A stretch of 64,000 nucleotides of DNA from an uncultured Bacteroidales bacterium (GTDB lineage: Bacteria > Bacteroidota > Bacteroidia > Bacteroidales > UBA932), in contig CAMHKQ010000009.1 of assembly GCA_946185745.1 (NCBI GenBank), forward strand, positions 1 to 64,000. Reading direction: 5' to 3'. The position numbers and the translations under genes were made by a program. Below, in pieces: positions 59,045-62,804 of the stretch; the stretch's first letter is position 1; every line of letters starts with the position of its first letter. The notes under the pieces are model-generated. The model saw only the letters and a program-made list of their open reading frames with translations, ran no database searches and was not told the DNA's origin.

Positions 59045-60901
59045 ATGGACAAGAATACAGTAACAGGGTTCATCCTTATTGCTTTAATTCTCTTCGGCTT
59101 CACGTTCTACCAGAGCCGTCAGGCGCGCAAACAGGCCGAATGGCAGGCTCAGCAGGATTCCATCGCGTTTGTCCAGAGGCAGATAGCCGATTCCATCGCC
59201 GCAGCCAATGCTCCCGCCGTCGCGGATGCCCCGGCAGCCGTTCCTGCCGCATCGGCTCCCGAGACGATATATAAAGACAGCACCCTCAACCTCCTTCATG
59301 GCGGAGAGGGCAGCATCGTGACCCTCGAAAACGACAAGATCGTGCTCGAGCTCACCACCAGGGGGGCGCAGCCGTACAGCGTGAAAGTCAAGGACTACTA
59401 CAATCACGATTCAACCGACCTCTACATCCTCAAGCCGGGCGGGAGCGACTATTCGATATCCGTATATACCGGCGAATATATCCGCACCCGGGACTTCAAC
59501 TTCCAGGTGGCCGAGAAGACCGACACCAGCGTGGCCTTCCGTCTTCCCTTCACGGGGGGCGGCTACATAGAGCAGCGCTACTCCCTGGCGGAAGGTGAAT
59601 ATATGGTCGATAACGTGCTGAGTTTCAAAGGTATGGACCAGGTGATCCCGCGAAATGTGTATTCCGTGGACCTCGACTGGGACGTGATCATCCCGCGCAT
59701 GGAGAAGAACTACAAGAACGAGAGCCAGTACTCCAAGCTCGACTTCTACCAGCCCGGGGACAAGAAGCCGGTCGAAATCGGCCGTGGCCGCAGCGGCGCC
59801 AAGAACGTCGCCAGCAGCGTGAGCTGGTTCGCTTTCCAGCAGCAGTTCTTCAGTGCCATCATGCGCAGCAAGAACGGCTTCCAGAGCGGAAACTTCGCAG
59901 TCACTTTCATCGACCAGGACGATCCCGAACGCAATCTGATGGCCTGCAAGGCCCAGATGAGGCAAGAGTTCACCCCTGGCGCTGACATCGAAATCCCCAA
60001 CGAGTTCTATTTCGGCCCCAGCCACTTCAGCACCCTCAAGAGCTACGACCAAAAGTACGAGAAGATAATCCCGCTCGGCGGCTGGCTTGTGGGCTGGTTC
60101 ACCCGTTTCGTGATCATCCCGCTCTTCAACTGGCTTCACAGGTTCATCTCGAATTACGGCCTTATCATCCTCATTATGACCTTCATCATCAAGATCGTGG
60201 TGCTGCCGTTCACTTACAAGAGCTTCGCTTCTTCCGCCAAGATGCAGGCCCTCCAGCCCGAAATAGCGAAGATCAACGAGCGCTATCCCAAGGAGGAGGA
60301 TGCCATGAAGAAGCAGCAGGCCACCATGAACCTGTACAAGAGGGCCGGGGTGAGTCCGATGGGAGGATGCCTTCCCACGCTGCTCACCTTCCCGATCCTG
60401 TGGGCGATGTTCCGCTTCTTCCCGGCGTCCATCGAGCTGCGACAGCAGCCCTTCCTGTGGGCCACCGACCTCTCGGCTCCCGACAGCATCATCGATTTCG
60501 GCACCAGGGTTCCGCTGCTCGGCGACCACCTGTCGCTGTTCGCGCTCCTGATGGCCGTGACCATGTGGGCGTACAGCAAGCTCACCGTGAGCAACACCAC
60601 CGCTTCCAACGATCCCAGCGCCAAGAGCATGCAGTTCATGAGCGTGTGGATGATGCCCATCATGATGTTCTTCATCTGTAACAACCTGTCTTCCGCACTC
60701 TCATATTACTACCTCATTTCCCAGCTTATCAGCATGGTGGAGATCTTCATAATCCGGAAGTTCTTCGTGCATCCAGAGGAAGTGCTTGCGAAGGTCAAGG
60801 CCAGCGAAGGCAAGCCGCTCCCCAAGAGCAAATGGCAGCAGAGGCTGGAAGAGGCGCAGAAGATGCAGCAACAGCAGATGAAGAATCAGCGCCGCAGATA
60901 A
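59045..60901 (+). CDS. yidC: membrane protein insertase YidC
   Basis: N-terminal TM and periplasmic domain; NYGLIILIMTFIIKIVVLPFTYKSFASSAKMQALQPEIAKINERYPKE; GVSPMGGCLPTLLTFPILWAMFRFFPASIELRQQPFLWATDLSAPDS. Confidence 0.96.
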   Translation: MDKNTVTGFILIALILFGFTFYQSRQARKQAEWQAQQDSIAFVQRQIADSIAAANAPAVADAPAAVPAASAPETIYKDSTLNLLHGGEGSIVTLENDKIVLELTTRGAQPYSVKVKDYYNHDSTDLYILKPGGSDYSISVYTGEYIRTRDFNFQVAEKTDTSVAFRLPFTGGGYIEQRYSLAEGEYMVDNVLSFKGMDQVIPRNVYSVDLDWDVIIPRMEKNYKNESQYSKLDFYQPGDKKPVEIGRGRSGAKNVASSVSWFAFQQQFFSAIMRSKNGFQSGNFAVTFIDQDDPERNLMACKAQMRQEFTPGADIEIPNEFYFGPSHFSTLKSYDQKYEKIIPLGGWLVGWFTRFVIIPLFNWLHRFISNYGLIILIMTFIIKIVVLPFTYKSFASSAKMQALQPEIAKINERYPKEEDAMKKQQATMNLYKRAGVSPMGGCLPTLLTFPILWAMFRFFPASIELRQQPFLWATDLSAPDSIIDFGTRVPLLGDHLSLFALLMAVTMWAYSKLTVSNTTASNDPSAKSMQFMSVWMMPIMMFFICNNLSSALSYYYLISQLISMVEIFIIRKFFVHPEEVLAKVKASEGKPLPKSKWQQRLEEAQKMQQQQMKNQRRR

Positions 60902-61680
60902 TGATCGCACAGAATTTAGAGAGTTTACTGAATGAACTGCCACAGGGTGTAAAACTTGTGGCAGTTTCAAAATTCCACCCGCTCGAGGCTCTTCTGGAGG
61001 CCTATGCCATGGGGCAGAGGTGCTTCGGGGAGAACCGTCCGCAGGAGTTCGCGGCGAAGGCCGTGCAGATGCCGCAGGACGTGGAATGGCATTTCATCGG
61101 GCATCTGCAGACAAACAAGCTCAAGCTGGTGCTGCCGTATGCCGCCATTGTGGAGAGCATTGATACCGTTCATCTACTTGAGGCGGTGAACAACTGGGGC
61201 GAACTGCATGACAAGGTCATAAACGTGCTGCTGGAGGTGCATATCGGCGCCGAAGAGACCAAGCAGGGCTTTACGCCCGATGAAGTGCTGGATTTACTGA
61301 ACAGCATTTGCAGCAGCCGGCAGCTCCCCCCGTCAGAAGCGATTGCTGCGCAATCGTCCCTCCCAAACCAGGGGTTTGGGCCCCTCCCTCTAATCCGCCG
61401 AGGGTGGCAGCCTTCTGAGGGAGGACATGCCGGCTGCTACCCGTTCATCAATTTCTGCGGGCTGATGGGCATGGCGAGCCATGTGGACGACGAGGAGGCG
61501 ATAGCCGCTGATTTTGAGCGGATTAAGAATCTGTTCGATGAATGCCGGGAGTGTTTCCCGCAGCTGAGGGACTTTTCTCAGCTATCCATAGGGATGTCGG
61601 GGGACTGGAGGATTGCCGTACGGCACGGTTCCACCGAAGTGCGCATCGGAACTGCCATATTCGGCGCCAGGCAGTATTAA
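60901..61680 (+). CDS. YggS-family PLP homeostasis protein carrying an in-frame element-derived insertion
   Basis: Start chosen at MIAQNLESLLNELPQGVKLVAVSKFHP; FGENRPQEF, EWHFIGHLQTNKLKLVLPYAAIVESID, FCGLMGMASHVDDEE, LSIGMSGDWRIAVRHGSTEVRIGTAIFG. Atypical segment SSRQLPPSEAIAAQSSLPNQGFGPLPLIRRGWQPSEGGHAG interrupts the family pattern. Confidence 0.88.
   Translation: MIAQNLESLLNELPQGVKLVAVSKFHPLEALLEAYAMGQRCFGENRPQEFAAKAVQMPQDVEWHFIGHLQTNKLKLVLPYAAIVESIDTVHLLEAVNNWGELHDKVINVLLEVHIGAEETKQGFTPDEVLDLLNSICSSRQLPPSEAIAAQSSLPNQGFGPLPLIRRGWQPSEGGHAGCYPFINFCGLMGMASHVDDEEAIAADFERIKNLFDECRECFPQLRDFSQLSIGMSGDWRIAVRHGSTEVRIGTAIFGARQY
61312..61438. mobile_element. MITE/REP-like inverted-repeat element inside YggS gene
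   Basis: Imperfect terminal inverted repeats AGCAGCCGGCAGCTCCCCCCGTCAGAAG ... CTTCTGAGGGAGGACATGCCGGCTGCT; internal hairpins GATTGCtgcGCAATC and CCCAAACCaggGGTTTGGG. Confidence 0.7.
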
Positions 61681-62804
61681 GCCTCAGGTTTCAGGGCATC
61701 GACCATGGCGCGGGCTATTGCCTGCGAGGCGCCGCTCCCTCCGAGTCTGGCGCGGATTTCAGAATAATCGGACAGCATCTGCCGCCTGTATGGGTGGTCT
61801 TCCATGAGGCGGAGGATTTCACTCGTGGCCGCCTCGGGGGTGAAGTCGTTCTGGATAAGCTCCCTGAAGGCGCATCTGTCGAGTATCAGGTTGCCCAGGG
61901 AAATGTATTTGATATGGGCGAAAGGCCGGCCGATCGCGTTCATCAGGAATGCCGTAAGCGGAGTGGTGCTCCAGCATACGACCTGGGGGGTGCCGATCAG
62001 GGCCGCTTCCAGCGAGGCGGTGCCGGAATTGACAAGCGCGGCGTCGGCATATTTCAGGATGTCGTAGGTGCGGCCGAAGAGCAGCTTGACATATGGCCTT
62101 TCCGCCATGTAGGCCTCATAATCGGCCTGTGTGCGGCCCGGGGCGCCCGCTATGAGGAACTGGCAGCCGGCGTGGCGGGGGAGCAAGTGAATGGCGTCAG
62201 CCATCTCCATGGCCGCCGGCATGGTATGGGAGATCTCGCTTTTGCGGGAGCCGGGCAGTATTGCAATGCAGGGCCCTTCAGCCGGTCTGGAGTAGCTGTG
62301 CGAATCCACCTCGTCCACCAGGGGGTTGCCCCTGTAGACCGCAGCTATCCCGCGGCTTTCGAAATACGGTTCTTCGAAGGGAAAGATTATGAACAGCCTG
62401 TCTACCAAGGCTTTGAGCTTGCGGTTGCGGCCGTCGCGGGACGCCCAGGTCTTGGGGGCGATGTAATAGAATACTTTTATGCCCCGTTCATGGCAGAACC
62501 GGGCTACCTTCAGGTTGAAACCGGGATAGTCGATAGGAATGACCACGTCGGGTTTCCAGCGGAGGATATCGGACTTGCATTCCTTCAGTCTCCGGATAAT
62601 CTTGCCGAGGCTTCCAAGTACGTCGCCGATTCCCATCACGGCTGTGTCCCTGTAATCGCCGGCCTTGCTGCCTCCAGCGGCCTCCATGGATGCGCCGCCC
62701 CAGAAACGGAATTCCGCCCCTGGGTCGGCGGCAAGCAGCCCCTTCATGAGGTTGCCGCCGTGAAGGTCGCCGGACGCTTCGCCGGCTATCAGGTAGTATT
62801 TCAT
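61677..62804 (-). CDS. lpxB: lipid-A-disaccharide synthase
   Basis: MKYYLIAGEASGDLHGGNLMKGLLAADPGAEFRFWGGASMEAAGG; IDYPGFNLKVARFCHERGIKVFYYIAPKTWAS; ILPGSRKSEI; VNSGTASLEAALIGTPQVVCW. Confidence 0.97.
   Translation of the reverse strand: MKYYLIAGEASGDLHGGNLMKGLLAADPGAEFRFWGGASMEAAGGSKAGDYRDTAVMGIGDVLGSLGKIIRRLKECKSDILRWKPDVVIPIDYPGFNLKVARFCHERGIKVFYYIAPKTWASRDGRNRKLKALVDRLFIIFPFEEPYFESRGIAAVYRGNPLVDEVDSHSYSRPAEGPCIAILPGSRKSEISHTMPAAMEMADAIHLLPRHAGCQFLIAGAPGRTQADYEAYMAERPYVKLLFGRTYDILKYADAALVNSGTASLEAALIGTPQVVCWSTTPLTAFLMNAIGRPFAHIKYISLGNLILDRCAFRELIQNDFTPEAATSEILRLMEDHPYRRQMLSDYSEIRARLGGSGASQAIARAMVDALKPEA

Follow-up and report, generated by a model that had tools for sequence, protein, structure and literature searches.

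How a YggS-family protein came to hold some 40 residues that its relatives lack is the question raised by one gene near the end of the window, the whole 64,000-nucleotide stretch of Bacteroidales DNA that was analyzed. A sequence-only reading of the window had proposed that the residues are encoded by a small mobile repeat, bounded by imperfect inverted repeats, which entered the gene in frame and extended its product. The features of the locus are as follows.

60901..61680, + strand: yggS, coding for a PLP-binding YggS-family (PLP homeostasis) protein with an in-frame insert (open reading frame; TIGR00044 above cut-off; PDB YggS homologs)
61312..61438, + strand: probable palindromic mobile element, 127 nt, in frame, ~41 residues extra relative to empty-site orthologs (inverted repeats, fold, genome copies, empty sites)
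61312..61339, + strand: left arm of the outer stem (inverted repeats and fold; compensating change relative to the sister species G113)
61340..61356, + strand: hairpin 1, CGATTGC TGC GCAATCG (fold; other copies)
61362..61380, + strand: hairpin 2, CCCAAACC AGG GGTTTGGG (fold; covariation counts)
61383..61407, + strand: hairpin 3, which holds the most conserved core, CCTCCCTCTAATCCGCCGAGGGTGG (fold; alignment; search pattern; model matches)
61412..61438, + strand: right arm of the outer stem (inverted repeats and fold)

Assignment of the open reading frame to the YggS family was borne out by NCBIfam model TIGR00044, which its product matched with 153 bits (cut-off, 106) in two separate stretches. 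The frame had been called intact, and its start at 60901 and end at 61680 hold, with the minor correction that the ATG overlaps the stop codon of a yidC-like reading frame upstream. On re-reading of the sequence, the DNA of the element and the foreign peptide SSRQLPPSEAIAAQSSLPNQGFGPLPLIRRGWQPSEGGHAG were both exact. Compared with PDB chain 7ygf, residues 129 to 181 of the query take the place of chain residues 140 to 151, an excess of 41 residues, and the list of open reading frames gave no stop codon in the yggS frame from 61312 to 61438, in keeping with a foreign in-frame stretch of about 40 residues. A repeat search returned the two arms (61312-61339 and 61412-61438) as 85%-complementary inverted repeats, as claimed. 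Folded as RNA, the 127-nt element reached -72.6 kcal/mol, whereas its shuffled versions averaged -51.3 (z = -5.7), and none of 200 shuffles was as good. Two further hairpins had been described within the repeats; hairpins are indeed present, and the fold places three of them, one more than described, inside one long outer stem. No Rfam 15 covariance model matched positions 61000 to 61800 at any value up to E = 1.

YggS orthologs were drawn from 151 genomes of the genus. The same yggS insert was present in the sister species G113, which is 90% identical, and the loop was free of it in the ortholog alignment for G119, G009, G057, G129, G083, and G116. The distance between the same two yggS motifs was 111 nt in the empty state and 234 nt in the filled state. 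This alignment, which the sequence-only reading had recommended, defined the empty site: 41 residues are absent at precisely this place from the nearer outgroups. The insertion in yggS is a derived state, with the G000 and G113 pair (95/92 support) nested inside the empty sequences in a YggS protein tree built free of the insert. Empty-site alignments also showed that the inserted unit includes both arms (123/127 nt in yggS; ~120/130 nt for L214 compared with L101). A target duplication, which might have marked the insertion, did not materialize, since direct repeats among 205 elements were at about chance level.

At least four state changes are forced on the YggS tree, although that in G032 reflects Gly-Ala expansion unrelated to the element. 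The element family also occupies this YggS loop in another, distant clade of roughly a dozen species, where the core is sometimes in the other orientation. Given this second clade and the forced state changes, two or more separate entries into the loop are most likely, the second clade having been invaded on its own. In G032 (L048), the same loop of yggS contains a Gly-Ala low-complexity expansion and the element is absent, which marks the loop as a general insertion hotspot. The yggS loops at L058 (G050) and L072 (G040) keep stretches that resemble the right arm and have no core; they are possibly remnants of the element.

A plain DNA search located partial relatives of the element at three further places in the genome. 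In the loci that were read, they had in common a core of the form CCCTCCCA-hairpin-TGGGCCCCTCCCTCTWA-N(3-8)-CCGAGGGTGG, and the sequence of the outer stem differed. The genome-wide search that had been called for was made with a covariance model, R1, derived from an alignment of twenty copies; it gave nine copies, that in yggS included, in the 1.9-Mb source genome. Other genomes of the genus had 37 (a near-complete assembly of eight contigs), 36, 16, 13, and 11 copies, and 125 of the 151 genomes had at least one at E <= 1e-6. When 393 genomes of the order were scanned, just four bearers lay outside the genus, in four further genera, and in a sample of 297 genomes from the phylum, R1 found none in the other 296. 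A pattern scan of GTDB contigs matched at least 120 stretches; the matches listed were Bacteroidales or Bacteroidia metagenome-assembled genomes (MAGs), mostly from rumen and gut, with Candidatus Coprenecus among them. Viral contigs gave no pattern match, and carriage by phage was rejected on that ground. The element family is almost wholly confined to one Bacteroidales genus in these genomes, most of which are MAGs. Relatives in DNA at other places in the genome and in most genomes of the genus agree with the proposal of a small mobile repeat. An insert conserved as protein sequence among orthologs, with no DNA copies elsewhere, would have pointed the other way; here, dispersed copies exist and close orthologs are empty.

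Several variants of the family were encountered. Two copies in opposite orientation lie close together at each of five loci (L109:3017-3249, L099:4578-4845, L132, L125, and L111), and in L109 both are in frame within one flavoprotein-like gene. A subfamily in G014 (L222-L224) has CGTTTTT/AAAAACG as its inner arm in place of GAAACC/GGTTTC, and the main type occurs in the same genome. In G016 (L247-L261), the second hairpin is longer in many near-identical copies, whose contexts share repeated flanks spaced at multiples of ~74 nt; this appears to be a tandem-repeat family. Between L032 and L206, identity is 100% over the element and ~100 nt of flank and only ~87% over the wider flanks, a pattern that suggests recent transfer or conversion.

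The arms behave differently from the core. Copies within one genome whose cores were similar or near-identical (mean identity, 0.75 to 0.98) had left arms that were just 0.30 to 0.42 identical, and the arm pairs of the same copies were 0.93 to 0.97 complementary over ~28 pairs. A weak consensus, roughly GGAGRAGGGTATNCCTTCCGGAAACC, is common to the arms and ends ~25 nt from the core, so the arms are not host sequence. An origin of locus-specific arms by inverted duplication of host flanks was rejected because empty sites place both arms in the insert, and it is also contradicted by left arms with a weak consensus ending ~25 nt out. Insertion into a pre-existing palindrome was likewise discarded, none being seen in the empty orthologs.

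Among 24 orthologous element pairs, identity was 92% in the core, 85% in the flanks, and 83% in the arms (P = 2e-7 for core over flank). In arm pairs, 71 double changes of all sorts were counted, compared with 23 expected if the two arms changed independently, and 56 of them retained Watson-Crick pairing. One such change distinguishes G000 (AGCCGGC/GCCGGCT) from G113 (AGCGGGC/GCCCGCT). Hairpin 1 differs in sequence between subfamilies and is usually still paired in the other copies compared. Hairpins 2 and 3 covary, hairpin 2 the most, with strong covariation at two variable pairs among 74 distinct copies. The compensating arm changes, the higher conservation of the core than of the flanks, and the covariation in the hairpins together demonstrate that the fold is maintained in place after insertion, through either selection or template-switch correction of quasi-palindromes. 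An attempt to read the functional strand from G.U-type mismatches was dropped, as the signals were contradictory: the arms favored A.C on the + strand (175 G.T and 254 A.C), whereas hairpin 2 favored G.T, one fixed position aside. A further reading, which we regard as somewhat unlikely, is that the element is a structured unit maintained as such, either by fold-back copying that remakes an arm at each transposition or by a host or element factor that selects the folded strand. If true, the mobile palindrome would renew its stem by itself, and protein extension would be a by-product.

Genes for Y1_Tnp (HuH) transposases were present in 103 of the 125 element-bearing genomes and in 7 of the 26 element-free genomes (P = 7e-8), and their presence climbed with element copy number from 27% to 95%; these statistics are raw genome counts that ignore shared ancestry. 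Reverse transcriptase genes, which served as a control, occurred in 31/125 bearing and 10/26 element-free genomes. Reverse transcriptase was consequently rejected as the mobilizer, there being no enrichment in element-bearing genomes. Our best guess for the mobilizer is a Y1 enzyme that works on the folded single-stranded form, and we tentatively suggest that an HuH/Y1-type single-strand transposase could move the element in trans.

The same co-occurrence, which depends on copy dose, would also be expected of a BIME/REPIN-type element, that is, a member of the REP family moved by its own RAYT transposase. Such an origin gains some plausibility from the Bacteroidetes TnpAREP subclass 2.6, which is reported to have atypical flanking structures that also occur at other sites in the genome (PMC6006769). 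We nevertheless consider it doubtful. In the six Y1 loci inspected, no element was found beside the Y1 gene, and the Y1 proteins fall into at least two distinct groups, several of which have short palindromes of their own. The element moreover exceeds a REP in length and lacks a conserved foot motif. The Y1 genes in L273 (G017), L275 (G006), and L276 (G005) are flanked by short palindromes of their own, such as GCATGGTAGATTCTACCATGC in L273; they make typical RAYT/REP pairs and are separate from the element.

Origin as a miniature inverted-repeat element (MITE) from a DDE transposon bearing terminal inverted repeats is improbable. Such an element would be small, dispersed, free of a transposase gene, and bordered by inverted repeats at both flanks, all of which apply here. 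End recognition by a transposase would, however, need conserved terminal repeats, and the arms are only 0.30 to 0.42 identical despite cores that are up to 0.98 identical. Target-site duplications are absent, and the ends of 205 elements had not one conserved base and no terminal motif. No autonomous relative with the same terminal repeats was seen among the loci read.

Seven of the nine copies in the source genome lie in frame in genes, namely, yggS, recG, polA, gcvPB (glycine dehydrogenase GcvPB), rnr (RNase R), rsgA, and a histidine kinase gene; the other two are between genes. The copy in polA separates the 5'-3' exonuclease part of DNA polymerase I from the 3'-5' exonuclease part, and that in the sensor kinase gene is at the gene start, in the N-terminal region. 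NCBIfam equivalogs above cut-off backed nearly all host assignments, with the YggS, RecG, and RNase R matches split in two. In related genomes, in-frame hosts included RibF, TruB, MtaB, TsaB, TrmB, RsmH, TruA, YgiQ, CutC, AroB, an ArgD-like protein, and others. This presence in many unrelated conserved genes strengthens the case for protein extension by a mobile repeat. In ribF (L102:2920-3900) and in another gene (L195:5156-6487), a second in-frame repeat lies beside the element and encodes CHSERS(P/E)-type peptides. We take it to be a different, widespread intergenic repeat.

From the GTDB scan, 119 copies, picked without regard to coding context, were classified by a codon-usage score trained here. 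Intergenic or unclear copies numbered 77, copies that were open and preserved the frame in genes 34, and apparently disrupting copies 8; these counts are approximate, as some rows are mutually orthologous. Without selection, one third of copies would be expected to preserve the frame, and the observed excess over this share is clear. Of the 34 open in-gene copies, 17 lay in each orientation with respect to the gene. As the element core is GC-rich and has few stop codons, both orientations and all three phases of each were found open. The peptides read in frame are rich in Pro, Gly, Ser, and Arg, which is what a flexible linker would show.

In YggS, the insert is positioned between an alpha helix and the next beta strand (FCGLMGMAS). 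The structure prediction that had been proposed did draw the insert as a coil that links H125-137 to E182-191; the AlphaFold model is of low confidence here (mean pLDDT, 47; three-sequence alignment) and at most hints at a looped-out insert. In RecG, residues 430 to 476 of the query take the place of 2 residues of PDB 1gm5, at a two-residue turn between helicase motifs DEQHRFG and MTATPIPRT. Judged by these alignments, both insertion points fall between structural elements. The insert would be translated, tolerated at the protein level, and compatible with function of the lengthened proteins.

The extra residues would be missing from the protein if the element acted in RNA, as a bypassing element or an intervening sequence that is cut out of the mRNA. 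A strong conserved fold with covariation and a core that outlasts its flanks in place would suit such a role, which we nonetheless hold to be quite improbable. An element that is removed needs neither to be open nor to keep the frame, and in-gene copies that do both number 34 against 8 that disrupt. With orientations at 17:17, the transcript strand differs between copies, and the wobble mismatches (A.C in the arms, G.T in hairpin 2) single out no RNA strand. The placement of insertion points between structural elements also speaks for residues that stay in the protein. Ordinary loop growth by slippage or low-complexity expansion, for which the Gly-Ala expansion in G032 shows that the YggS loop tolerates growth with no element involved, is scarcely credible, being already contradicted by relatives of the inserted DNA at unrelated loci, in both orientations, in all frames, and between genes.

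Taken as a whole, the evidence argues strongly that the yggS insert is a copy of a ~125-nt nonautonomous mobile palindrome family whose in-frame insertions into loops survive as linkers of ~40 residues. The unit consists of a conserved ~75-nt core of three hairpins flanked by two self-complementary arms of ~25 nt and inserts entire, both arms included, possibly through an HuH/Y1-type single-strand transposase supplied in trans. Insertions that keep the frame and land in a loop between secondary-structure elements would be the survivors, and the surviving insert would then be read as a linker of ~40 residues. The element is apparently a selfish repeat that lengthens ordinary proteins by ~40 residues.

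Insertion in frame by selfish palindromes is known mainly from Rickettsiales and, in some cases, from archaea and enterobacteria, and we found no description of it in Bacteroidota in the literature. An abundant gut and rumen genus with elements in recG, polA, rsgA, truB, trmB, ribF, and others offers many natural pairs of filled and empty orthologs, through which the acceptance of random 40-residue insertions by proteins becomes testable. The paired change of the arms provides natural data on the upkeep of complementarity in long palindromes. The case also cautions against treating such inserts as conserved protein sequence in annotation and structure prediction.

Among known systems, REP/BIME sequences with RAYT (TnpAREP) (PMC6006769) are similarly palindromic and dispersed, with Y1/HuH genes that co-occur with copy number. 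The Bacteroidales element differs in that it does not adjoin a Y1 gene (0/6 loci), is longer, is common inside genes, and lacks a conserved tetranucleotide foot at the base of the stem. ERIC and the Correia/NEMIS MITEs are 100 to 200 nt long, form stem-loops, and include some in-frame fusions with open reading frames (PMC2229807). Size class, stem-loop, and in-frame cases are thus alike, whereas the element described here has neither target duplication nor TA ends, and its terminal repeats are not conserved. In coding palindromes of nematomorph mitochondria, arms stay complementary while changing, for which template switching has been offered as an explanation (PMC6649704). In-gene inverted-repeat arms that change yet remain complementary are found here too, but the nematomorph repeats are described as specific to a locus in coding sequence and not as a mobile, dispersed family, and the Bacteroidales core recurs at many loci. 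The accounts in PMC2229807 of Wolbachia protein-coding palindromic repeats and of gene-fused repeats in archaea (Ogata 2005; Suyama 2005) also concern small in-gene repeats, which are translated in those systems and predicted to be so here; the hosts are unrelated, and the comparison is one of descriptions.

The closest parallel is the Rickettsia palindromic element (RPE). As presented in PMC2229807 and PMC10969869 from Ogata et al. (2000, 2002), RPEs are palindromes of ~105 to 150 nt that occur in and between genes and in frame in many housekeeping genes; host proteins tolerate them, as an RPE-containing Gmk is active (PMC2229807), and their repeat identity is described as eroding with time (PMC6649704). 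The element reported here resembles them in length (127 nt, within a 100- to 150-nt range), in its long stem-loop (z = -5.7), and in having many copies that are intergenic or in frame in unrelated conserved genes (7/9 in the source genome). It is unlike them in belonging to another phylum, in its three-hairpin core, in arms that differ between copies yet are complementary, and in a structure that is kept in orthologous copies. The Bacteroidales family is set apart from RPEs by published descriptions and by its confinement, in the searches made here, to Bacteroidales; membership is not claimed. On this comparison, the element appears to work like an RPE but would represent a separate family in another phylum, in which the arms are maintained and re-paired.
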